A stretch of DNA of 64,000 bases, from positions 124,001-188,000 of the forward strand of contig NZ_JANHDO010000002.1 of the NCBI RefSeq assembly GCF_024494575.1, given 5' to 3'. A model generated the notes under the pieces. It saw only the letters and a list, made by a program, of their open reading frames with translations, was not told the DNA's origin and made no database searches. The translations under genes and the position numbers were made by a program. Of this stretch, positions 20,581 to 32,132 are shown piece after piece. Positions within the stretch are counted from its first letter, which is position 1. Each line of letters opens with the position of its first letter. Origin of the DNA: Halorubrum salinum (GTDB taxonomy: Archaea; Halobacteriota; Halobacteria; Halobacteriales; Haloferacaceae).

Positions 20581-21135
20581 TCACCCGATCCGGTTCCGTC
20601 TCGTCACCGTCCGGTGGACGGCCCCGGAGATACCGAACAGCGCCGCGAACAGCCCCGCGTACGCGTAGCCGGACAGCCACGCGAACGGGACGGTCCCGAT
20701 CCACGCCGCGCCGGCCAACAGTCCGCAGACGACTCCGAGCCCGAGGTAGTACTCGCCCCAGAGGATCTCGTTTTGCCCGACGATCTCGAGGTACACGTCC
20801 AGGTCGCGTCCCTCGTCGGTGAGCGAGGCGAGCCCCCTGTCCGGCTCGTACTCGATGAACCCGCTTTTCGCCAGCTTCGGGAGGTGGGACTGATGGAGCG
20901 CGGTGTACACGCGCTTGCGCTGTTTGTACGTCACCGCCGGGACCTCGACCTCGTTTTCCCACGCGGCGATCTGTTCGGCGATATCTCTGACTCGCGCTTC
21001 GGCGTCGACCTGCTTCAGATACCGGATCGTGTGCCGACGCCGCCGATTGCTCAGCGCCGAGAACACCTCGTCGCGCGAGGGCTCCCCGCTCTCGTTTACC
21101 GGAGGCTTCTCTATAATTGTGTGTTGTGATGTCAT
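20581..21135 (-). CDS. Membrane-linked winged-helix protein (DUF7344-like)
   Basis: 184 residues. The N-terminal two thirds form a winged helix of the haloarchaeal DUF7344 type: VFSALSNRRRRHTIRYL, then RVYTALHQSHLPKLAKSGFIEY and a wing. Two hydrophobic segments follow (about 130-178), so the DNA-binding domain is predicted to be tethered to the membrane. A regulator is likely (inference). The start at ATG 21135 (MTSQHTIIEKP) follows an AT-rich promoter region with a TATA-like GTTATATG near 21170-21178. A paralogue lies at 22287-22814, and a surface-protein locus begins 2.2 kb further on. Confidence 0.75.
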   Translation of the reverse strand: MTSQHTIIEKPPVNESGEPSRDEVFSALSNRRRRHTIRYLKQVDAEARVRDIAEQIAAWENEVEVPAVTYKQRKRVYTALHQSHLPKLAKSGFIEYEPDRGLASLTDEGRDLDVYLEIVGQNEILWGEYYLGLGVVCGLLAGAAWIGTVPFAWLSGYAYAGLFAALFGISGAVHRTVTRRNRIG

Positions 21136-21391: not shown

Positions 21392-22249
21392 ATGACTGCC
21401 TCACACACTATTGGCCGTCTTCGACGCCCCGAGTACACCGGTGAGAACCGCTGTGTCCCGTGTACGATCGTCAATCTCGGCATCGCCGCGACGCTCGCCG
21501 CCGTGATCGCCGTCGCGGTCGGCCCCTCGCTCGGGCCGGCGCTCGCCGCGGTCGTCCTCGTCGGATCGCTCGTCGCGATCTGGCTCCGCGGCTACCTCGT
21601 CCCGGGGACGCCGGAACTCACGAAGCGCTACCTCCCGTCGTGGGCGCTCGCGTTGTTCGGGAAAGACTCCGACCGGCACGCCGAATCGGCCGCCGTCCCC
21701 GACGGCTTCGATCCCGAAGCGTATCTCCTGTCCGCGGGCGTCCTCGCGGAGACGGCGGACGGGAACGACTTCGCGTTCGCGCCGGAGTTCGCCGACGCGT
21801 GGCGGGACGCCCTCGACCGAGAGGGCGCGGTCGCCGCGGCGCGCGCGGACGCCGACCTCGCGGCGCTGTCGACGCTCACCGGGCTCGACGAGGCGACGCT
21901 GTCGCTCGACTGGCACGGCGCGTCCGGCGTCGCCTTCGCAGACGGTTCCGTGATCGGTCGCTGGGAGTCCCGACCCGCGTTCCGCGCGGACGTCGCCGCC
22001 GACCGCGTGCTCGCGGCGAGCCGAGACGACTGGGCCGCCCTCCCGCTCGGGGCGCGCAGCGCGGCTCTCGGCGCGCTCCGACTGTTCGTCGACGAGTGTC
22101 CCGCCTGCGCGGGTGACGTGGCGCTCGAAGAGCGCGTCGTCGAGTCCTGTTGTACCTCCCGTGACGTCGTCGCCGCCCGCTGTCGCGGCTGTGACGCGCG
22201 GCTGTTCGAGATGGACCTCCCCGAGTCGATCGCGGTCGAACGCGACTGA
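21392..22249 (+). CDS. Conserved haloarchaeal membrane protein with zinc-binding cysteines
   Basis: 285 residues; function not recognised. A CVPC pair (residues 21 and 24) precedes two hydrophobic segments (about 27-66). A soluble alpha/beta region follows and ends in a probable zinc ribbon (CPAC at about 236, a CC pair, and CRGC near 268). The start at ATG 21392 (MTASHTIGRLRR) is chosen because everything upstream in the open frame lacks haloarchaeal codon bias and contains likely promoter sequence (CATACATA about 30 bases upstream). It sits between two DUF7344-like regulator genes on the opposite strand, with no operon partner. Confidence 0.6.
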   Translation: MTASHTIGRLRRPEYTGENRCVPCTIVNLGIAATLAAVIAVAVGPSLGPALAAVVLVGSLVAIWLRGYLVPGTPELTKRYLPSWALALFGKDSDRHAESAAVPDGFDPEAYLLSAGVLAETADGNDFAFAPEFADAWRDALDREGAVAAARADADLAALSTLTGLDEATLSLDWHGASGVAFADGSVIGRWESRPAFRADVAADRVLAASRDDWAALPLGARSAALGALRLFVDECPACAGDVALEERVVESCCTSRDVVAARCRGCDARLFEMDLPESIAVERD

Positions 22250-22286: not shown

Positions 22287-22814
22287 TCACCGCCGGAGGT
22301 GACGAACCACGGAGAACCGGTTGATCCACAGTTGATACGCGCTGGCGGCGGCGAACAGCCCGAGCGCGAGGCTCGTCCAGAGCATCGGGTCGACCGCGGA
22401 CACGCCGGGGGCGTCGAGGTGCGCGGCGAGCACGACGAGCAGGGAGCCGGTGCCGAGCGCGCGGTACAGCTCCGACCACGTCACGCCGCCGCGCGCGACG
22501 ATCTCGGTGTAGAGCCCCACGTCTCGCGCGTGTCGCGAGAGTTCTATCGTCTGCGTCTCGCGGTCGTACTCGATCACGCCGAGCGCCTCCAGCTTCGGGA
22601 GGTGCGTCTGAACGAGCGAGGTGTAGACGCTCTCGCGACACCGCGTCGGCGGGGGCGTCTCGCCGGTCTCTCGGCCGGCGACGAGCGTCGACAGCTCGTG
22701 GACGGTCACTACCCCGCCGACGTCGGTGAGCTGTTCGAGCGCGCGGCGGCGGCGCTCGTTCGCGAGGATGGCGTACACCTGTTCGGCCGGGAGGACGTCG
22801 CGTCTGAATTTCAT
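22287..22814 (-). CDS. Membrane-linked winged-helix protein (DUF7344-like paralogue)
   Basis: 175 residues, the same architecture as the protein at 20581-21135: winged helix (YAILANERRRRALEQL; SVYTSLVQTHLPKLEALGVIEYD; a basic wing) followed by two C-terminal hydrophobic segments (about 118-162). Probably a membrane-associated transcription regulator. The ATG at 22814 is the natural family start. The upstream region shared with the divergent surface-protein locus is 549 bases, so a regulatory link to that locus is plausible but unproven. Confidence 0.75.
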   Translation of the reverse strand: MKFRRDVLPAEQVYAILANERRRRALEQLTDVGGVVTVHELSTLVAGRETGETPPPTRCRESVYTSLVQTHLPKLEALGVIEYDRETQTIELSRHARDVGLYTEIVARGGVTWSELYRALGTGSLLVVLAAHLDAPGVSAVDPMLWTSLALGLFAAASAYQLWINRFSVVRHLRR

Positions 22815-23363
22815 GGTGAGGGTGGGTCCGGGCCCGCGGCGGCGGTGCCCGACTGGTACGTCTTCCCGTGCGCGAGATAGGGGCATATGTATGGTCTCGC
22901 TACCCGCCCATCGAGCGCGGCGCGGCGTCTCCCAGTTCCCGTCTCGACCGCCGTTTGACGGCGATACCGGCGGACTCCGGCGGGGACGGCGCGGTCTCCC
23001 GCCCGAGTGGCGCGGCGGGACGACTCGACGCGCCGCTCGCCCGGCAGTCGGTTCGTACCGCTTCGGCGAGTACGAGTATGGCCTTCGTTCCGCATTCCCG
23101 GCCGCGAGTACGGTCTCCCTGCGGCTCCGATCCCCGCGAGTAGGCACGCCGGACCGTCGGTCGAAGGCGTCGTGTGACCGCATCGAAGGGTTCGTTTGAC
23201 GCGATCGAACGGACGATTCGATTCGTCGCTTGAGGCGTTCTACTCGTCGAATTCCTCGTTTGACTGTGACATGGCTGCGCGTAACTAGGTAGCTATCCCC
23301 TAGAGGGGGTAGTAACCGACTTCCGCTGGCCGAGCGCGGAACGGGCGTGAGTCGGGTGATACC
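22815..23363. other. 549-base divergent intergenic region upstream of the surface-protein locus
   Basis: No convincing gene on either strand; the open frames here have no family match and atypical composition. It holds a TATA-like CATATGTATGG at 22883-22893 facing the winged-helix gene. It also holds two imperfect copies of a TGAC-x-GC-ATCGAA element (about 23172-23188 and 23197-23213), further TCGTTTGA-like elements up to 23270, and an inverted repeat at 23293-23312. These are candidate regulatory sites for the rightward locus. Confidence 0.55.
23293..23312. promoter_or_regulatory. Inverted repeat CTATCCCC/GGGGGTAG upstream of the first TasA-like gene
   Basis: Eight-base arms (seven of eight pair) separated by TAGA, ending 51 bases before the ATG at 23364. 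An overlapping CTAGG...CCTAG pair begins at 23285. C-run/G-run hairpins also precede the second and third genes of the locus. It may be an operator or an RNA structure. Confidence 0.5.
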
Positions 23364-24863
23364 ATGAAACCGGACACCAACGACACGATCGGACTCTCGC
23401 GGCGCAAGCTGCTCGCCGGCCTCGGCGCGGTCGGCGTGGCCTCCGCGGGCGCGGGACTGGGAACCACGGCGTACTTCAACGACACGGAGACGTTCGAGGG
23501 TAACACGCTCACCGCGGGCGAACTCGATTTGAAGCTCGACTACAAGTCGACGTACCTCGGCGGCCCCGGCCGTCTGGACGACGTCGTCGACATGGGCTAC
23601 CCGGACGCCGAAGACCTCGGCGACGGCCGGTACCTGCTCGACCAGACCCCGAGCCCCGCGGACATGCAGGCGTGGGAAGACCTCGTCATGGAGGACGACT
23701 TCGACTTCTGTTCGCCCGAGGCGGACGAGTACCTCGTCAACGGCGAGGGAATTCCGGTGTTCACGCTCGACGACGTGAAGCCCGGCGACTCCGGCGAAGT
23801 GACGATCAGCCTCCACATCTGTGACAACCCCGCGTACCTCTACCTCGCGGGCGAGATCACGGAGAACGCGGAGAACGGGCAAAGCGAGCCAGAGTCGGCG
23901 GTCGACGAGACCGGCGGCGACCCCGGCGAGGGCATGGGCGAGCTCGCGGACGCGATCGAGGTCTGCGTCTGGTACGACGAGGACTGCGACAACGTGTACG
24001 AGCCCACCGGCACGGGCCAGCAACAGGAACTGGAGGTCGCCCTCGTCAGCGACGTCTCCGGATCCATGGACGGCTCGATCGACGACCTCCAGGCCGCCGC
24101 GAACGGGTTCGTCGACAACCTCTCCGCACCGGACGAGGCCGCCGCGATCTCGTTCAACAGCTCCGCGTCGCTCGACCAGGAGCTGACCACGAACTACCAG
24201 GCCGTCAAGGACGCCATCAACGCCTACAGCGACGGTGGCGGCACGAGCATCGATCAGGGAATCAACGTGGGTGCGGACGAACTCCTCAACGGGAGCAACG
24301 CCACTCCCGGCGCGTCGAAGGTGATGATCCTGCTGAGCGACGGGAACTCCAGCGCCACTGCCGCGAACAACGCGGCGGACGCCGCGAAGAACGCGGGCAT
24401 CCGCATCTTCACGATCGCGCTCGGGAGCGCGAACACCTCGCTGCTCCAGAGCCTCGCGAGTTCGCCGGACGACGCCTTCGTCGCACCCGACCCGGCCGAC
24501 CTCGACACCGTCTACGCCGAGATCGCGCAGATCGTCTTGGCGGGCGAACAGAAGATCGCCTCGGGCACGATGAGCGAGGTCTTCGGACAGCTGTCCGAGG
24601 GCGTCGCGCTCGACGGCAACCGCCAGGACGAGGGTCGCCAGCCGTACCCCGGCGCGACCACTCAGTGCATCGGCTTCGAGTGGACGCTCCCGGCGGAGGT
24701 CGGCAACGAGATCCAGACCGACTCCGTGGCCTTCGACCTCGCCGTCTACGCCGAGCAGTCGCGGCACAACGACAACCCGCAGGTGGCGTTCAACGGGACG
24801 GAGGCGAACAGCACCAGCCCCGGCCCCGCCCCCAACGGCACCGGCAACGTGAGCTCGAACTAG
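23364..24863 (+). CDS. TasA/camelysin-like surface protein with inserted vWA domain (copy A)
   Basis: 499 residues. Signal region: twin Arg (SRRK, 13-14), hydrophobic AGLGAVGVASAGAG, then AYFNDTETFEGNTLTAGELDL, closely resembling the SipW-cleaved signal of Bacillus TasA/camelysin; predicted cleavage is after GTTA. The TasA-like strands include DVKPGDSGEVTISLHICDNP. A vWA domain (about 222-393) is inserted after WYDEDCDNVY, with MIDAS residues Asp230, Ser232, Ser234, Thr294 and Asp326. The TasA-like fold then resumes (GTMSEVFGQLSEGVALDGN, ECVW/CIGFEW-type strands, AEQSRHN). The Asn/Ser/Thr-rich tail has several N-glycosylation sequons and no membrane anchor. Likely an exported, self-assembling or adhesive subunit with metal-dependent ligand binding (inference). 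Residues 19-46 are encoded by DNA identical to copy C. Confidence 0.85.
   Translation: MKPDTNDTIGLSRRKLLAGLGAVGVASAGAGLGTTAYFNDTETFEGNTLTAGELDLKLDYKSTYLGGPGRLDDVVDMGYPDAEDLGDGRYLLDQTPSPADMQAWEDLVMEDDFDFCSPEADEYLVNGEGIPVFTLDDVKPGDSGEVTISLHICDNPAYLYLAGEITENAENGQSEPESAVDETGGDPGEGMGELADAIEVCVWYDEDCDNVYEPTGTGQQQELEVALVSDVSGSMDGSIDDLQAAANGFVDNLSAPDEAAAISFNSSASLDQELTTNYQAVKDAINAYSDGGGTSIDQGINVGADELLNGSNATPGASKVMILLSDGNSSATAANNAADAAKNAGIRIFTIALGSANTSLLQSLASSPDDAFVAPDPADLDTVYAEIAQIVLAGEQKIASGTMSEVFGQLSEGVALDGNRQDEGRQPYPGATTQCIGFEWTLPAEVGNEIQTDSVAFDLAVYAEQSRHNDNPQVAFNGTEANSTSPGPAPNGTGNVSSN
23418..23499 (+). repeat. 82-bp direct repeat (copy 1) in the signal region of gene A
   Basis: Identical base for base to 26497-26578, including every third codon position. 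It encodes the signal hydrophobic core through the YFNDTETFE segment. Confidence 0.95.
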
Positions 24864-24941
24864 CTCTTTGGAGCTGTCCAACCACCCCGAACGATCACCT
24901 CGTTCGGTTCCCCGTTCGGCACCCGACGTGGGCGGCCGACG

Positions 24942-24980
24942 CGGCGGTTCGCGACCGCCGGCGGGACTCCCCATTGGGGA
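24942..24980 (+). promoter_or_regulatory. Double hairpin leader immediately upstream of gene B
   Basis: First stem: CGGCGGT / ACCGCCG (24942-24948 with 24954-24960, loop TCGCG). Second stem: TCCCC / GGGGA (24968-24972 with 24976-24980, loop ATT), ending nine bases before the ATG at 24990. The same two-stem layout precedes gene C. It may control translation or mRNA processing. Confidence 0.55.
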
Positions 24981-24989
24981 TGATACACA

Positions 24990-26321
24990 ATGAACGACGA
25001 CACAATCGGACTCTCGCGGCGCAAGATGCTGGTCGGACTCGGGGCTGTCGGCGTGGCCTCCGCGGGCGCGGGACTGGGAACCACGGCGTACTTCAACGAC
25101 ACCGAGTCGTTCGAGGACAACACGCTGACCGCCGGCGAACTCGACCTGTTCGTCCACGTCGACTACTCGGAAGATCAGGGTAGCTACGCGCAGTACTCTA
25201 CCCCCTCCGGAACGTTCATCGACGGCAACGTCGTGGGCGGCGGCGACGGCGAACCCCTCAGCATCCAGGTCTCCGACCTGAAGCCCGGCGACTCCGGCGA
25301 GGGCGAGTTCTGCTTCTCGATCGTCGACAACCCCGCGTACATGTGGATGTGCGGCGAGCTGACCGCGAACGACGAGAACGGCCAGACTGAGCCCGAGTCC
25401 GACGACGACGAGACCGGTGGCGACCCCGGCGAGGGCGCGGGCGAGATCGCCGACGCGATGCAGGTGACCGTCTCGTACTGTACCGACGACGGCGACGGCG
25501 GAAACGTGGTCGGCGACGAGATCATCTCCGGCTCGCTAGCGGAGGTCATGCTCGCGCTGCAGGCCGGCGTCCCGCTGTCCGGCGACGGCGACGGCGGCGC
25601 GCCGCTCGCGAACCGCCCCGCGTTCGAGGGCGTCACCGAACCGTTCGTGGACGATGTACCGAACATCGCAGAGCAGTGCGTCTGCTTCGAGTGGGAGGTC
25701 CCGGTCGAGGTCGGCAACGAGATCCAGACGGACTCCGTGACGTTCGACTTCGAGTTCTACGCGGTCCAGGCCCGCCACAACGACGGGACCCACAACCCCT
25801 GCGTGGACGAGACCGTCGTCACCGCGTACGACAACGACTGGAAGGGCCAGACTCTGGGGAACCCCACCGAGGGTAACGTCTACACCAGCGTCTCGTTCGG
25901 CCAGAATCAGACCGTTCTGAGCTTCGCGTTCGACGACGACGGCGACGGCGTGGACTTCCTCGACACCGCGGACTACTCCAGCACGAATCTCCCCGTGGCG
26001 GTCGACGCGGACGCGGACGGCACGCACGACTGGCAGCTCATCTGGCAGCCCAACGCCGGCTTCCCGGACGCTCCGTTCGGATACGTCGAGAACAACGGCG
26101 GAAGCTACGGCGCTGCTCAGTCGCTCCCGGCCGGCTTCTCGGCGGCGAAGGTCGGGAACACGATCGTATTCGGGGTCCCGAACAGCGAGATATCCTCGAC
26201 GTTCCGGCTGCTCGGATACGGCAGCACGGGCGGCGAGGGGCCGGTCGCGAAGGTCAACGACGACCCCTCGTTGGGCCCGGACTTCTACAACAGCGCTAAC
26301 GCGGTCGAGTTCAGCGACTGA
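24990..26321 (+). CDS. TasA/camelysin-like surface protein with extra C-terminal domain (copy B)
   Basis: 443 residues. It has the same Tat-plus-SipW-like signal region as copy A (SRRK, GTTA before YFNDTESFEDNTLTAGELDL) and the same TasA-like core (DLKPGDSGEGEFCFSIVDNP; FEWEVPVEVGNEIQTDSVTF; VQARHNDG). It lacks the vWA domain: between the strand ending VSYCTDD and the SGSLAEVMLALQAGVPLSG strand there is only a short acidic loop, so this gene shows the uninterrupted fold. Residues about 270-443 form an additional all-beta domain rich in Asp, Asn and aromatic residues that I do not recognise. No membrane anchor. Probably the plain structural subunit, with a distinct C-terminal cap or ligand-binding module (inference). 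Confidence 0.82.
   Translation: MNDDTIGLSRRKMLVGLGAVGVASAGAGLGTTAYFNDTESFEDNTLTAGELDLFVHVDYSEDQGSYAQYSTPSGTFIDGNVVGGGDGEPLSIQVSDLKPGDSGEGEFCFSIVDNPAYMWMCGELTANDENGQTEPESDDDETGGDPGEGAGEIADAMQVTVSYCTDDGDGGNVVGDEIISGSLAEVMLALQAGVPLSGDGDGGAPLANRPAFEGVTEPFVDDVPNIAEQCVCFEWEVPVEVGNEIQTDSVTFDFEFYAVQARHNDGTHNPCVDETVVTAYDNDWKGQTLGNPTEGNVYTSVSFGQNQTVLSFAFDDDGDGVDFLDTADYSSTNLPVAVDADADGTHDWQLIWQPNAGFPDAPFGYVENNGGSYGAAQSLPAGFSAAKVGNTIVFGVPNSEISSTFRLLGYGSTGGEGPVAKVNDDPSLGPDFYNSANAVEFSD
25047..25102 (+). repeat. 56-bp segment shared with the 82-bp repeats of genes A and C
   Basis: Identical to the central 56 bases of the two 82-bp repeats (within the signal region); the flanks have diverged. Confidence 0.9.
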
Positions 26322-26391
26322 CGCGCTGACGACCCCGCCGCTTCGGGCGGCGTGACCGCCTCCCACCCCGGACCCGCGCGGACGGCCGGGA

Positions 26392-26430
26392 CGACGGTTC
26401 GACTCCGTCGGTGGGACTTCCCTTCGGGGA
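26392..26430 (+). promoter_or_regulatory. Double hairpin leader immediately upstream of gene C
   Basis: First stem: CGACGG / CCGTCG (26392-26397 with 26405-26410, loop TTCGACT). Second stem: TCCC / GGGGA (26419-26430, loop TTC), ending nine bases before the ATG at 26440. Both this and the copy before gene B are preceded by GGGACT. Confidence 0.55.
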
Positions 26431-26439
26431 CTTCCAATC

Positions 26440-28149
26440 ATGACAGACAACGAAACAATCGACACGGTCGGTCTCTCGCGGCGGACGCTCCTGGCGGGCC
26501 TCGGCGCGGTCGGCGTGGCCTCCGCGGGCGCGGGACTGGGAACCACGGCGTACTTCAACGACACGGAGACGTTCGAGGACAACACGCTCACTGCCGGTCA
26601 GCTCGACTTGCTCGTCGACTGGCAGCAGACGTACGACTTCGGTGAGGGTCACCAGTTCGTCAGCGCGCACCCCGACCACGACGGCGACGGCGAACAGTCG
26701 ATCGAGATAGACGGAGAGGTGTTCGCGTACAGCGACTTCCCGGACGAGGACGACGAGGACAGCAACGGCGCGAACATCCCGGTGCTCGACTGCGAGACCA
26801 TCCCGCCGCTGGAGGAGGCGGACTTCGGCACCGACCCGGTCACGGGCGAGGAGATGGAGACGCTGATCCAGTTCTCCGACGTGAAGCCCGGTGACTCCGG
26901 CGAGATCACCTTCTCGCTCCACCTCTGTGACAACCCCGGCTACATCTGGATGCAGGCGGGCAACGTCAGCGAAGACGGCGGCGCGTTCACGGAGCCCGAA
27001 TCGCTCGTCGACGCGGACAACGCCGCGGACCTCGCGGACGCCATCGAGGCGACGCTGTGGTACGACGAGGACTGCGACAACGTCTACGACGGCGCGGAGC
27101 CGGTGGACATCATGCTCACGCTGGATTTCTCCGGCTCGATGCTGTACGACCAGTACGGCGGCGTCGTCAACTCCGACCCCATTCAGGTCAACGGGACGAC
27201 GTACCCGGAGACGACGAAGGTCGACCTCGTCGAGCTCGGCACCCGCCAGTTCGTCGACTACCTGCAGTCGCAGAACTCGGACGTGCAGGTCGGCGTGGCG
27301 TACTTCGACGGCGAGGGAAGCGACGACACCGAGCCGCGGACCGGCATCGTTCAGCCGCTGACGAGCGACCTCTCCGTGGTCGACTCGGCGCTCTCCGGAC
27401 TCCGACAGAAGCTCGCGAACGTCGTGAGCGGCGGCGCGGGCTCCACACCGTTCGACGGCGACGGCGACCCGGACCCGTTCTCGAACGCGAACGGCATCGC
27501 GACGGGCACCTACATCGGTGAGGGCGTCGACGACGCGCAGGACGAACTCGCCGCGAACGGCCGTCCGGCGGCCGACAAGCGCAACATCGTTCTCTCGGAC
27601 GGCGAGTCGTTCAACGGCACCGGCAGCACCCAGTTCTCCTCGCCGACCGGGGCGGCGGACGACGCGCGGGCGGCCTCGCCGAGTCCCGCGACCGACGTCT
27701 ACACGATCAACGTCGACGGCAGCGCCGGCACGCTGCAGGCGATGGCCGGCCCGGCCGGCGGGACCGGCGGCGACGCGACGTTCTTTAACAACGTCGACGA
27801 CCCGCTCAACATCCCGACCGTGTTCGGCAACCTCGCGGCACAGACCGCACAGGAGAAGGTCATCATGGAGGACACGCTCGGCAACGTCCTCGACGCGCTC
27901 GCCGACGGCAACGGCGTCCCCCTCGACGGGAACCGCGCGACGCCGTACGACGAACTCGGCGACGCGCCCGACGACGCGGCCCGCGACCCGTTCCGCGGCG
28001 ACGGCGTGATGCACTGCGTCGCGCTCTCGTGGGAGCTGCCGTTCGACGTCGGCAACGAGGTTCAGGGCGACACGCTCGGCTTCGACCTCGGCTTCTACAC
28101 CGAGCAGGCGCGTCACAACGACGGCTCCGGACCGGGACAGGCCGCCTGA
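26440..28149 (+). CDS. TasA/camelysin-like surface protein with inserted vWA domain (copy C)
   Basis: 569 residues. The signal region is like copy A (SRRT, GTTA before YFNDTETFEDNTLTAGQLDL). TasA-like strands surround DVKPGDSGEITFSLHLCDNP. After WYDEDCDNVY a larger vWA domain (about 222-465) is inserted at exactly the same point as in copy A: MIDAS Asp229, Ser231, Ser233, a Thr in the GIATGTYIGEG region and Asp in LSDGESF. The fold resumes at MEDTLGNVLDALADGNGVPLDGN and ends with LSWELPFDVGNEVQGDTLGF and TEQARHND. Four Cys are in positions shared with copy A, suggesting conserved disulfides. The vWA sequences of A and C differ far more than the scaffolds, so the two proteins probably bind different ligands (inference). 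Confidence 0.85.
   Translation: MTDNETIDTVGLSRRTLLAGLGAVGVASAGAGLGTTAYFNDTETFEDNTLTAGQLDLLVDWQQTYDFGEGHQFVSAHPDHDGDGEQSIEIDGEVFAYSDFPDEDDEDSNGANIPVLDCETIPPLEEADFGTDPVTGEEMETLIQFSDVKPGDSGEITFSLHLCDNPGYIWMQAGNVSEDGGAFTEPESLVDADNAADLADAIEATLWYDEDCDNVYDGAEPVDIMLTLDFSGSMLYDQYGGVVNSDPIQVNGTTYPETTKVDLVELGTRQFVDYLQSQNSDVQVGVAYFDGEGSDDTEPRTGIVQPLTSDLSVVDSALSGLRQKLANVVSGGAGSTPFDGDGDPDPFSNANGIATGTYIGEGVDDAQDELAANGRPAADKRNIVLSDGESFNGTGSTQFSSPTGAADDARAASPSPATDVYTINVDGSAGTLQAMAGPAGGTGGDATFFNNVDDPLNIPTVFGNLAAQTAQEKVIMEDTLGNVLDALADGNGVPLDGNRATPYDELGDAPDDAARDPFRGDGVMHCVALSWELPFDVGNEVQGDTLGFDLGFYTEQARHNDGSGPGQAA
26497..26578 (+). repeat. 82-bp direct repeat (copy 2) in the signal region of gene C
   Basis: Identical to 23418-23499. 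The surrounding coding sequence is only moderately similar, which points to recent gene conversion or strong constraint on this segment. Confidence 0.95.
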
Positions 28150-28362
28150 CCGCGGAACGCGGGACCCCGCGACGAACGGGACGCCCGCGGCGGGCTGACT
28201 CCCGCCTCTGAGAGGGCCGCGCGGCCGAGTAGGAGACGCGGACCGCTCGGGTAGGTCGTGCATACATACGGACGCAGGGGGCGTGAGACGACCATCGGCG
28301 GCGACGGCGGCGGCAAGCTGCCGTCTCGGACGGAACCGCACACGAAACACACACGACAGCAC

Positions 28363-29139
28363 ATGACACACAAAGACACACAACTCACGCGGCGACAGAC
28401 GCTCGCGGGCCTCGGAGCCGTCGGCTTCGCCGTCCTCGGTGCCGCGACCGGCCGGTCGGCGGAAACGGCCAGCCGGGAGGCGTATCCAAGCTACACGTAC
28501 GCGCAGTCAGACACGCCGTGGGACCTCGTGGTCGGCTGGCGACGCACCGAGAACGGGGCCGTTGTCGGGTCGAGCCCGAGCGACGCCGAGACCGACGTCG
28601 AGAGCGCCGGCATCCGGCTCGTCGACGTCGACAACGCGCTGCCGGGCGACCGCGGGACGGCGAGCGTCGGGCTCTGGCTCGACGACCCGGCGAACACCGC
28701 GCCCGACGGCGTCCGCGTGTGGCTCCGCGTCTCACCCCAGGTCGACACCGCCGACGCCGCGAGCGCCGCGCTCGCAGAGCGCATCTCGCTCGACGTCCGG
28801 TACGACACCGGAATCCTCGGGATCGGCGGCTGCGGGGGTGCCGAGGGAGACTTCGCCGCGTACGGCGAGTCGATCGCCGACGGCACGCTGGCCTCGTTCG
28901 ACGGTACCGACCTCGCCGAGGGGATCGAACTGAATCCGGGACTCTTCGACAGCGGGTGTCTCACCGCCGACGAGCGGCGGTGTCTGGTCTTCGCGTGGGC
29001 GTTCGACACCGACGGCGGCAACGCCGGACAGGGCGGGACCGTGGACTTCACGGTCGAGTTCGCCGCGGACGACTGCGGGAGCGAGGGCAACCCCTTCGAG
29101 ATCGACGCGGCCCCCGACGCCGCGGGAGGGACGTCGTGA
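28363..29139 (+). CDS. Exported TasA-related protein, divergent (gene D)
   Basis: 258 residues from ATG 28363 (MTHKDTQLTRRQTLAG). It has a twin-Arg signal (TRRQ) and hydrophobic core LGAVGFAVLGAATG. It lacks the FND block of copies A-C but keeps the core layout: an ALPGDRGTASVGLWLDDP strand like the KPGD segment, a central ISLDVRYDTG strand, SIADGTLASFDGTDLAEGIEL and a closing CLVFAWAFDTD...GGTVDFTVEF. I therefore place it as a distant member of the same fold, without a vWA domain or membrane anchor. The upstream 213 bases contain several GC hairpins (28150-28240). Its stop overlaps the GTG of gene E. Confidence 0.65.
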   Translation: MTHKDTQLTRRQTLAGLGAVGFAVLGAATGRSAETASREAYPSYTYAQSDTPWDLVVGWRRTENGAVVGSSPSDAETDVESAGIRLVDVDNALPGDRGTASVGLWLDDPANTAPDGVRVWLRVSPQVDTADAASAALAERISLDVRYDTGILGIGGCGGAEGDFAAYGESIADGTLASFDGTDLAEGIELNPGLFDSGCLTADERRCLVFAWAFDTDGGNAGQGGTVDFTVEFAADDCGSEGNPFEIDAAPDAAGGTS

Positions 29140-30227
29140 CCCCAGACGACGGTGAACGACGGTCGAGCGGCCTGAGCCGCCGCCGCCTGCTCGCCGGGAT
29201 CGGCGGCGTCGGTGCGGTCGGTATGGCGAGCGGGCTCGGCACCGGCGCGTACCTCTCGGACCGCGTGACGTTCGCGAACAACGGGTTCGGGGCCGGAACG
29301 GTCGAGCTGACGGTCGGTGACGGCGTCGCAGACGGCGTCGTCGTCGACGTGTCGGGGATCGACCGCGGTCCCGAGGGACGCGTCACCGAGACGTTCCCCG
29401 TCGGCGTCCGGACCAACCCCGCGCGGGTCTGGCTCGCGGCGGAATGTCCCGACGACGACGCGCTCGCGGCCGCCCTCCGGATCGATCTCCGCGTCGACGG
29501 GCGCTCGATCACGGACGGGCTCCGGCCGTTCGCCGCCGTCGCGGCCGACCTCGTCTCCGGCGAGCGCATCGACGACGGCTGTCTCGGCCCCGACGACGCG
29601 CTCGCGGTCGAGGTCACAGCGGAGCTCCCAGCCGACGCGCCCGACGCGCTGGCCGGGACGGCGACCTCGCTTCGCCTCCGCCTGTACGCCGAACAGTGCC
29701 GACACGTCACCGAGACGGCCGCGACCGGCGCGAACCCCTTCGCCGGACGGGCCTGTGAGGGTCCGGCGTGCGTCTCCTGTGAGGACGAAAACGGCGTCGC
29801 GATCGGATCGCTCACGCTCCGGTACCGCGGCGACGAGGCCGCGCGCGTGACCGTCGCCGCCACCGGCGGCGGTGCGGGCGGCGTCGGCACGGGCGGGACC
29901 GTCGTCTTCGCGGGCGACGTGGCTCCGAACGAGACGTTCGTCGTCGACGGCTCCGACGCACCCACGAACGGCGACCCGGGCTGGCTCGGCTCGAACATCT
30001 ACGTCGACGCCGACAGCGACGCCGCTGACGGCAGCGACGCCGGAAGCGACGACAGCGGTCCGGGAAGGGGCAACGGCGGACCCGAGCGCCCGGCCGGCGT
30101 CAAGATTCACACGAGCTGTTCGGAGCCGCTCGCGGTCGGGATGCGGTTCGGCGAGAACGGCGAGTTCGAGATCGCCGCCGGAACGACGACGGCCGGCGAG
30201 CCGCTCTGCGGCTCGGAGGAGAACTGA
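29136..30227 (+). CDS. Exported TasA/camelysin-like protein with C-terminal Cys motif domain (gene E)
   Basis: 363 residues. The GTG start overlaps the gene D stop (GTGA) and is preceded by a GGGAGGG Shine-Dalgarno at 29124-29130. The signal has twin Arg (SRRR) and GTGAYLSDRVTFANNGFGAGTVEL, a variant of the AYFND...aGeLDL block, so cleavage by the locus peptidase is expected. The TasA-like region runs to about residue 195 (LRLYAEQCRHV). A second module with paired Cys (CEGPACVSCE) and a small beta domain ends in KIHTSCSEPLAVGMRFG, a motif I have seen at the end of many archaeal surface proteins. A Gly/Asp/Ser linker lies at about 290-315. Probably an accessory or capping subunit (inference). 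Confidence 0.7.
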   Translation: MTPDDGERRSSGLSRRRLLAGIGGVGAVGMASGLGTGAYLSDRVTFANNGFGAGTVELTVGDGVADGVVVDVSGIDRGPEGRVTETFPVGVRTNPARVWLAAECPDDDALAAALRIDLRVDGRSITDGLRPFAAVAADLVSGERIDDGCLGPDDALAVEVTAELPADAPDALAGTATSLRLRLYAEQCRHVTETAATGANPFAGRACEGPACVSCEDENGVAIGSLTLRYRGDEAARVTVAATGGGAGGVGTGGTVVFAGDVAPNETFVVDGSDAPTNGDPGWLGSNIYVDADSDAADGSDAGSDDSGPGRGNGGPERPAGVKIHTSCSEPLAVGMRFGENGEFEIAAGTTTAGEPLCGSEEN

Positions 30228-31231
30228 TGACACCAACTCTCACACCACGGATGAAACGGGCGGCGAACGTACTCGGCATCGCCGTGCTGATCGTCCTCGT
30301 GGCGCCCTTCGCGGTGTACGCGGCTCCGGAGGTCGTCGGTGCCGACGAGAGCTTCGTCGTGCTCACGCCGAGTATGACCCCCGCGATCGCTCCCGGCGAC
30401 GTCGTCGTCGTGGCCGAACGCGACCCCACCACAGTCGTCGAGGACGACGTGATAACCTTCGTCCGCGGGTCGAGCGACGTGCCGGTGACACATCGGGTGA
30501 TCGGCGTCGTCTCCACGGCCGGCGGCGTCGAGTTCGAGACCAAAGGCGACGCGAACGAGGGTCCCGATCCCGGGCTCGTCCCGGGAGCGAACCTCGTCGG
30601 CGTCGTCGTCCTGACGATCCCGTACATCGGCTACGTGATCCAGTTCGCCGGCACGCGGGCGGGCTTTCTCGCGCTGGTCGTGCTCCCGTTCGGACTGCTC
30701 GTGGCGTCGGAACTGTGGAGCATCGTCCGATCGCGGTCCGACGACGCCGGCGATGCACTCGCATCGACCGATCCGGAGACTCCGGCCGGTTCGGACGCTG
30801 GGGCCGATCCGGACGTCGAGGCCGGTCCGGAGGCTCCGGCCGGTTCGGACGCTGGGGCCGATCCGGACGTCGCAGAGACGGTCGCCGATTCGACGACGGC
30901 CGCGGACGAGACTGGCGGGATCTCGGTCGACGCGGTCGGCGGCGCGACCGCCGTGCTCGCCGTGTTCGCGCCCTACGCCGCTTACGCGGCGGTCGAACTC
31001 CGGAGCGCGGCGTCGATCGCGGTCGCGGTCGCGTCGGCGACGGTCCTGTTCGGCGCGCTCGCGGTCTGGGTGCCGGCGAGCGGCGTCGTCGACCGCGTTC
31101 GCCCCGGTGACTCGGCGTCCTCGTCCGAGCGGTCTGCGGAGCCGGTCACGGTCGACCCGTCCTCCGCGCCGGCCGCCGACGAGACGCCCGCGCCCACGGC
31201 GCAGACGGACGGCTCGGGGGAGGTGGAGTGA
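30227..31231 (+). CDS. SipW/Sec11-type signal peptidase I (gene F)
   Basis: 334 residues. An N-terminal transmembrane helix (about 14-34) is followed by the S26B catalytic domain: nucleophile Ser49 in LTPSMTP, His89 in THRVIGV (His rather than the bacterial Lys, as in ER/archaeal/SipW enzymes) and acidic residues Asp108/Asp114 in KGDANEGPD. A second helix lies at about 136-165. It then departs from the family: an acidic Ala/Gly/Asp/Pro linker (170-230) with an internal duplication, two more hydrophobic helices (about 236-285) and a disordered acidic tail. The ATG overlaps the gene E stop and has GGAGGA at 30215-30220. Being embedded among SipW-type substrates, it is almost certainly their processing peptidase (inference). 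Confidence 0.85.
   Translation: MTPTLTPRMKRAANVLGIAVLIVLVAPFAVYAAPEVVGADESFVVLTPSMTPAIAPGDVVVVAERDPTTVVEDDVITFVRGSSDVPVTHRVIGVVSTAGGVEFETKGDANEGPDPGLVPGANLVGVVVLTIPYIGYVIQFAGTRAGFLALVVLPFGLLVASELWSIVRSRSDDAGDALASTDPETPAGSDAGADPDVEAGPEAPAGSDAGADPDVAETVADSTTAADETGGISVDAVGGATAVLAVFAPYAAYAAVELRSAASIAVAVASATVLFGALAVWVPASGVVDRVRPGDSASSSERSAEPVTVDPSSAPAADETPAPTAQTDGSGEVE
30780..30871 (+). repeat. 38-bp exact direct repeat inside the signal peptidase gene
   Basis: Copies at 30780-30817 and 30834-30871, offset by 54 bases (18 codons), so the reading frame is kept. They encode two PAGSDAGADPDV blocks in the inter-helix linker. Confidence 0.95.
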
Positions 31232-31998
31232 TGCCCGCTTCACGCGGCGTCACCGCCGCCGCCGTCGCCGTCCTGCTCGTGTGGTGCGTCGCGTTCGGCG
31301 GCGGGTACACCCTCGCGGCGTTCTCCTCGGCCGCCAACGTGACCGTCTCGTTCGAGACCGCGGAGAACTTCTCCGTCCCGGAACCGACCGCGGACGTCCC
31401 CGACGCCCCCCAGGCCGCGTCCGCCGACAACGGCTCTGACCCGTCCGTCGCGGCCGATCCCGGTCCGCCGGCGAACGCCCCGGGTCCGGGAGAGAACACG
31501 AGATCGCCACCCGGCGGCGGGGCCGTTCCGCCATCGGCGACGGTCCCGACGCCGCCCGCCACGGGCGGCGGGGACGCGGCAGAGGGTCCCGAGAGCGACG
31601 ACGAGACTGACGGCGCAGACGAACCGAAGACGACGGGTGAGCCGCCCGACACCGCTGCCGCCGGCGAGCCGGCGGGTGACGACTCCGCCGCTCCCGATGA
31701 CGACGCTGGCGAGGGCGGTGACGGCACCGGTGACGCTGGCGAGGGCGGTGACGGCGACGCCGACGCTGCCGGTGACGGAGACGAAGCCAGCAGCGGCGAT
31801 GAGGATGCCGACGCCACCGGCGACGGCGACAACAACGGCAGCGCGGGCGACGCCGCCGGAGGTGGGGAGGATGGCGACGCCGGAGATGAGGATGCCGGTG
31901 ACGACGCCGAAGACGCTGACGACGGGAGCAGCGACGACGCCGGTGACAGTGGCGATACAAGCGGCGGCGACGCAGCCTCCGGTGAGGTGAGCGCGTGA
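31231..31998 (+). CDS. Asp/Gly-rich exported protein with SipW-like signal (gene G)
   Basis: 255 residues. The hydrophobic segment (about 6-30) leads into TLAAFSSAANVTVSFETAENF, a reduced form of the TasA/SipW cleavage context but without the twin Arg of the other substrates, so Sec export is more likely. From about residue 60 the protein is low-complexity Asp/Gly/Ala/Glu/Ser/Thr/Pro, including a 24-base direct repeat (31702-31725 and 31732-31755). No folded domain is evident. It could be a hydrated sheath, spacer or calcium-binding matrix component (inference). Start: the ATG at 31231 shares one base with the gene F stop and sits seven bases after GGAGG at 31219-31225; a GTG directly before it is the alternative. 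Confidence 0.7.
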   Translation: MPASRGVTAAAVAVLLVWCVAFGGGYTLAAFSSAANVTVSFETAENFSVPEPTADVPDAPQAASADNGSDPSVAADPGPPANAPGPGENTRSPPGGGAVPPSATVPTPPATGGGDAAEGPESDDETDGADEPKTTGEPPDTAAAGEPAGDDSAAPDDDAGEGGDGTGDAGEGGDGDADAAGDGDEASSGDEDADATGDGDNNGSAGDAAGGGEDGDAGDEDAGDDAEDADDGSSDDAGDSGDTSGGDAASGEVSA

Positions 31999-32132
31999 GC
32001 GCTTGCGGTCGGCCGAGACGCGCCGGTCGCCCCCTCTGTGGACCGGTGGGGCTGAAGCTCGCGGTGCTTCTGTTGTTCGTCCTCCTCCTGCTTCTCGGCG
32101 TCCTCGCTGGGATCGTCCGCGGGCTCGGCTGA
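31995..32132 (+). CDS. 45-residue single-helix membrane protein (gene H)
   Basis: A small gene. The GTG at 31995 overlaps the gene G stop (GTGA) and is preceded by GAGGTGA (31984-31990), matching the Shine-Dalgarno consensus. The protein has a basic head with two cysteines (CGRPRRAGRPLCG) and one strongly hydrophobic segment (residues 20-41: LKLAVLLLFVLLLLLGVLAG), ending at TGA 32130-32132. I recognise no family. Translational coupling and codon use support it as real. It may be a membrane partner of the peptidase or a locus-specific assembly factor (inference). Confidence 0.65.
   Translation: MSACGRPRRAGRPLCGPVGLKLAVLLLFVLLLLLGVLAGIVRGLG

Follow-up and report, generated by a model that had tools for sequence, protein, structure and literature searches.

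Organization of the locus

The window analysed here, a stretch of 64,000 nucleotides from Halorubrum salinum, contains a row of genes, labelled A to H, for putative exported proteins, a signal peptidase and a small membrane protein (Table 1). The initial annotation had described an eight-gene locus, and this is borne out: all ORFs were found where it had placed them, all on the forward strand, and seven of the eight were also recovered by a codon-based gene caller. Its gene boundaries stand except for small corrections, included in Table 1, to the start of D and to E, G (start at 31228 or 31231) and H. From D to H neighbouring genes overlap by 1–4 bases, which is the pattern of a translationally coupled operon; E and H each start with a GTG that overlaps the stop codon of the preceding gene. 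The short gene H, noted earlier as encoding 45 residues, is real, with homologues of 45–64 amino acids downstream of G in many Halorubrum loci, joined to it by the same four-base GTGA overlap.

Table 1. Features of the locus and its upstream region (positions in the window).
Feature	Positions	Strand	Description
R1	20581..21135	-	DUF7344 winged-helix-type regulator (PF24035, E-value 1.4e-29); flanking, probably associated
R2	22287..22814	-	Second DUF7344 regulator (PF24035, E-value 6e-24), divergent from A; candidate operon regulator
Palindrome	23297..23316		Imperfect palindrome CTATCCCCTAGAGGGGGTAG upstream of A; candidate operator
A	23364..24863	+	Tat/SipW-type signal, TasA-like domain, embedded vWA (residues 225-384) with full MIDAS
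B	24990..26321	+	Tat/SipW-type signal, TasA-like domain, C-terminal Ig/CBM9-like beta-sandwich
C	26440..28149	+	Tat/SipW-type signal, TasA-like domain, embedded divergent vWA with MIDAS kept
D	28363..29139	+	Tat-type signal, TasA-like core, no SipW/donor segment
E	29136..30227	+	Tat and SipW-type signal, shorter TasA-like core, C-terminal DUF7467 (PF24269)
F	30227..31231	+	SipW-like/archaeal type I signal peptidase (Ser49/His89), extra C-terminal membrane region
G	31231..31998	+	Sec-type N-terminus, SipW/donor-like segment, acidic low-complexity tail
H	31995..32132	+	45-aa tail-anchored-type membrane protein

Two genes for DUF7344 regulators lie upstream of A. Among the named loci a DUF7344-like gene adjoins the first substrate gene in 54 of 71 cases and is divergent from it in 53 of these 54. 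An element similar to the palindrome, CCCTCGGAGGG, occurs 65–70 bp upstream of the first substrate gene in several Halorubrum loci. The palindrome is possibly an operator for a DUF7344 regulator; this function is inferred. Between the two regulator genes (21392–22249) lies the gene of a conserved 285-aa protein with an N-terminal membrane region, a cysteine-rich C-terminus and no Pfam match, homologues of which recur beside SipW/TasA-like loci. Separately, the first 4000 positions of the window have a GC content of 57–61% against about 70% in the remainder and could be an island.

Signal sequences and export

SipW-type or Tat signals had been proposed for all of A–E. With the model for SipW-dependent signals TIGR04088 (cut-off 19 bits) this holds for A, B and C (34, 34 and 32 bits), while D gives no match and is only Tat-like. 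Protein E remains below the cut-off with 15.6 bits, but its homologues do match (23 of 27); among 29 homologues of D none does. When the whole genome was searched with TIGR04088 at E-values up to 1, five matches were obtained, all in the locus: A, B, C, E and, below the cut-off, the N-terminus of G.

Twin arginines are present in 299 of 325 strong haloarchaeal SipW-type signals and missing in the four of four readable signals from other archaea, which come from four loci only (L190–L193). Substrates of the Tat system fold before export. Tat export of folded proteins would fit the behaviour of TasA, whose soluble monomer is self-complemented (PMC9674648).

A shared TasA-like domain

The mature domains of A–E were compared by hhalign, using profiles of their orthologues from which the signal peptides and the vWA domains had been cut out. 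All ten pairs align, with probabilities of 98.5–100 and E-values of 1e-15 to 1e-61 (against B, 1.6e-18 for D and 4.6e-20 for E), whereas the controls, which were column-shuffled profiles and three families of these loci that are unrelated to A–E, gave E-values of 0.04–0.9. This homology between all pairs indicates that the TasA-like strands recognized earlier in the five proteins belong to one homologous domain. Iterative searches started from D, E and B converged on one set as well, but drift is possible in such searches and the controlled comparison was used in their place.

A model of mature B was obtained with AlphaFold2 from 63 sequences (pLDDT 82, pTM 0.85). In a Foldseek comparison with the PDB the only chain with an E-value under 1e-3 was the TasA fibre (8aur; E-value 1.1e-4, probability 1.00), and alignment of the TasA monomer 5of1 with VIA-align gave a Z-score of 9.7 and an rmsd of 3.5 over 154 residues with 20% identity, covering model residues 35–236. 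CBM9 modules score as well as 5of1, but over residues 154–410, and Ig chains align only at about 260–410. By these alignments B has an extra C-terminal Ig/CBM9-like domain. This domain (window 25866–26321) could bind carbohydrate. The archaeal pilin AbpA was not among the listed PDB matches of the model, an absence that excludes nothing. A fold search with the whole of A was uninformative on its TasA part because the match list was filled by vWA domains, and this part was judged by profile comparison.

By sequence alone the relation to TasA is weak: the family profile matches TasA with E-values of 0.04 to 0.2, and in the profile search against the PDB a chance match to a sialoadhesin scores slightly better. 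The Pfam M73 profile PF12389 was rejected as proof of TasA homology, as it matches the signal stretch only; its gathering score is passed by B alone (23.9 against 22.5 bits), over residues 20–56, with A, C and E below it, and a search of the whole genome at an E-value of 1e-3 gave no match. The TasA similarity put forward in the initial annotation has in this way survived the profile and fold comparisons, through the fold of B and the homology of A, C, D and E to B, but not through the M73 profile. The mature domain of A–E is, as far as prediction goes, a TasA-like fold; the domain was modelled in B, and for A, C, D and E the assignment is made via their homology to B.

Embedded vWA domains

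In A the vWA domain is recognized by Pfam (PF00092, E-value 2e-22) and is located inside the TasA-like fold. That of C is missed by Pfam and matches the domain of A by profile (E-value 1e-15, against 0.35 for a shuffled profile). The MIDAS (DxSxS, T, D) is complete, its D, S, S, T and D being invariant or conserved over 90% in 53 A- and C-type sequences. Of 124 proteins that combine a SipW-type signal with a vWA, 117 have the vWA between the KPGD and GNEIQ halves of the core, and in most of the others it lies behind the core. This second architecture is seen in loci L068, L071, L148, L150, L153 and L162.

The closest structure to the vWA domain of A is the fimbrial tip protein Mfa5 (Z-score 26.1, 27% identity), whose vWA likewise splits a beta-sandwich domain into two segments (PMC7835359). 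The likeness to Mfa5 and the intact MIDAS suggest a role in adhesion, an inference from sequence and structure alone. The earlier proposal of two vWA proteins is correct for A and C; that these are vWA-tipped remains unproved, the domains being embedded within the chain.

Putative donor and acceptor segments

Protein G had been described as an acidic, low-complexity exported protein. It is acidic and of low complexity, and its N-terminus in addition carries a SipW/donor-strand segment. In G homologues the acidic tail varies and a segment GG..T.A.FSD...V..F is kept; 28 of 40 match TIGR04088 at E-values up to 1, the best at 3e-8, and the TapA and TasA models match weakly in second place. A profile of G aligns with the substrate N-termini by hhalign at an E-value of 3e-6, compared to about 0.1–0.2 for control N-termini. 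No TasA core was detected in G. Judged by these sequence features, G is probably an additional SipW-type protein, and it is probably exported by Sec, since twin arginines occur in only 3 of 39 homologues. D is the reverse of G, a TasA-like core without the SipW segment. A precedent for a protein that only donates a strand is TapA, of which the secreted residues 44–57 alone support biofilms of B. subtilis (PMC10151520). Taken together, a donor-only G, A, B, C and E with both donor and acceptor, and an acceptor-only D would fit a linear donor-strand polymer; this is an inference, as neither polymerisation nor adhesion could be tested here.

In TasA, F29, P62, F200 and Q232 are among the most conserved residues and are situated at the protomer interface (PMC10151520). 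The conserved columns of the haloarchaeal family had been listed before these residues were known to the analysis. In the profile alignment P62 (chain position 33, offset 29) is matched by the P of KPGD and Q232 by the Q of AxQxRHND, both of which are invariant; the counterpart of F29 is a phenylalanine at the mature N-terminus that is conserved 90%+ in the family, and F200 was not placed. All three counterparts are present in A–C. The counterparts of F29 and Q232 are missing in D and that of P62 in E, so not all five proteins need polymerise; D and E may be caps, chaperones or non-polymerising partners. The donor segment is also the recognition site of the peptidase, and its conservation may reflect cleavage alone.

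The peptidase and its co-occurrence with the substrates

F, assigned earlier as a SipW/Sec11 peptidase, is an archaeal SipW-like peptidase. It has the ER-type Ser/His arrangement, with the Ser, His and Asp columns invariant in 14 of 14 homologues, and scores 95 bits with TIGR02228, the general model for archaeal signal peptidases (cut-off 52), being the only protein of the genome over that cut-off; three weaker paralogues are encoded elsewhere. With the SipW model NF046067 it reaches 95.8 bits, below the 190-bit cut-off, and F is similar to SipW but not an equivalog. The C-terminal membrane region of F is absent from short versions of the peptidase.

In 148 genomes of the family, relatives of B are found in 87 and relatives of F in 90, largely the same genomes. 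Among 292 genomes of the class, for which the counts were combined by hand, TIGR04088 matches occur in 138 and F in 147, and F is present in all 138 TIGR04088 genomes (Fisher p 3e-73, uncorrected for phylogeny or shared ancestry). The nine genomes with F only include weak paralogues and decayed copies. Among the named loci, a substrate gene lies at most 3 kb from F in all 76 loci with a called peptidase and at most 400 bp away in 66 of them. The co-location of the signals and their association with the peptidase are far beyond chance. Lack of such co-occurrence in other genomes would have refuted the locus as first interpreted, and it does not apply.

Genera with the operon include Halorubrum, Halobellus, Haloferax, Halobacterium, Haloarcula, Natrialba and Halococcus. 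In Haloferax and Haloarcula the number of substrates is often no more than one or two. In three Haloferax loci (L157, L161, L169) one SipW-type substrate is combined with the peptidase, and a G-like gene then follows in L157 and L169. In one genome of the same genus (G140, L101 4528–5244) all that remains of the locus is a decayed fragment of the peptidase gene, located between mutS and a ZIP transporter gene.

Possible function and alternatives

In view of the above we consider it likely that the operon serves a surface filament or matrix fibre composed of several TasA-like subunits, an interpretation carried by the observed gene content, homology and co-occurrence and by the predicted fold. 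In the proposed mechanism A, B, C and E would be exported by means of their twin-arginine signals and trimmed at the SipW-type site by the dedicated peptidase F, which would free an N-terminal strand (AYFNDTE..). As in TasA, this strand could then be inserted into the following subunit, whose beta-sandwich is open. Both cleavage and polymerisation are inferred here, as is any order of subunits, in which B would be the likely main or spacer subunit and E would contribute its DUF7467 domain. Adhesion, also an inference, would be provided by A and C through the MIDAS vWA inside the chain. G would offer a strand only and, like the N-terminus of TapA, may be the starting point of the chain at the membrane; D would offer a groove only and may act as a cap or chaperone; and H may aid anchoring or assembly. 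Control of the operon by the DUF7344 regulators is equally inferred.

A more specific form can be put forward only tentatively, and we regard it as possible rather than probable. It describes a hetero-polymeric haloarchaeal pilus of folded, Tat-exported TasA-like subunits, with the Sec-exported, donor-only G as starter, donor-plus-acceptor building blocks of which A and C hold an integrin-like MIDAS adhesin within the very fold that polymerises, the acceptor-only D as cap or chaperone, and a single peptidase that releases the subunits. Filament formation itself rests on inference, without an experiment, a complex prediction or a filament image.

It is also conceivable, if unlikely, that A–E are separate, non-polymerising secreted or surface adhesins that have a TasA-like domain and a signal peptidase in common, with A and C binding ligands through their vWA domains. 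The vWA indeed accounts for much of A and C, some TasA interface residues are missing in D and E, and polymerisation is untested. Yet inspection of A–E revealed no C-terminal membrane segment or sortase-type tail by which they could be retained at the cell, the protomer-interface residues of TasA are conserved in proteins of the A–C type, and the number of paralogues and the operon order resemble polymer systems. An amorphous or sheet-like product in place of a filament, released as extracellular matrix or surface coat and with G as a salt-adapted filler, seems improbable to us; it would agree with the acidic, low-complexity character of G, with the function of TasA as a matrix protein and with the lack of a retained anchor, but G is conserved at its SipW/donor N-terminus and not in the tail. 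That the likeness to TasA reflects merely a common beta-sandwich, and that A–E stem from an unrelated immunoglobulin-like surface family, can hardly be maintained, because the insignificant sequence profile to TasA and the many Ig folds that match the C-terminal domain of B are outweighed by TasA as the sole PDB match of B under the threshold, by the alignment of 5of1 with the N-terminal domain, a part that the Ig chains do not cover, and by the SipW signal and the KPGD and Q motifs, all of which agree with TasA.

Surface fibres of haloarchaea are discussed mostly as type IV pili and archaella. The preferred reading, a filament or fibre of several TasA-like subunits, points to a second, donor-strand class of fibres in about half of the sampled genomes of the class. 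If true, it would mean a TasA-type polymer built from subunits that are folded before export by Tat, with vWA adhesin domains inserted in the very fold through which the subunits polymerise.

Comparison with known systems

In the literature searched, which was covered in part, no description was found of a haloarchaeal SipW/TasA/vWA operon, of a TasA fold that contains a vWA or of SipW substrates with signals of the Tat type. The initial view that no haloarchaeal equivalent has been described is to that extent supported; the operon is nevertheless widespread in haloarchaea, where NCBI has annotated it piecemeal, with individual proteins named 'SipW-dependent-type signal peptide-containing protein'. 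We know of no vWA in the AbpA bundling pili and of no link of the Sulfolobus threads to a SipW-type peptidase or a vWA. The former, from Pyrobaculum calidifontis, are reported to form an archaeal TasA-like donor-strand filament, in a different archaeal lineage (PMC9674648, PMC10903470), and the latter are also archaeal donor-strand filaments (PMC9715654). That archaea have TasA homologues has been mentioned in general terms (PMC10151520). Mfa5 of the type V fimbriae of Porphyromonas gingivalis resembles A in being fibre-associated with a MIDAS vWA between beta-sandwich segments, but is unrelated to the haloarchaeal locus in its carrier fold, its secretion route and its assembly machinery.

The tapA-sipW-tasA operon of Bacillus subtilis and sipW-calY/tasA of B. 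cereus share with the locus the SipW-type signals, a dedicated ER-type peptidase beside its substrates, the TasA fold, the interface residues P62 and Q232, of which A–C have conserved counterparts, and an accessory protein with a strand-like N-terminus. The haloarchaeal locus differs in its five TasA-like proteins, compared to one or two in Bacillus, and further in the vWA inserted in two of them, the twin-arginine signals, the donor-only G, the donor-less D, the extended peptidase and the DUF7344 regulators. SipW–TasA operons in Bacillus and TasA-like pili in Pyrobaculum are already known, and the haloarchaeal operon is a more elaborate variant.
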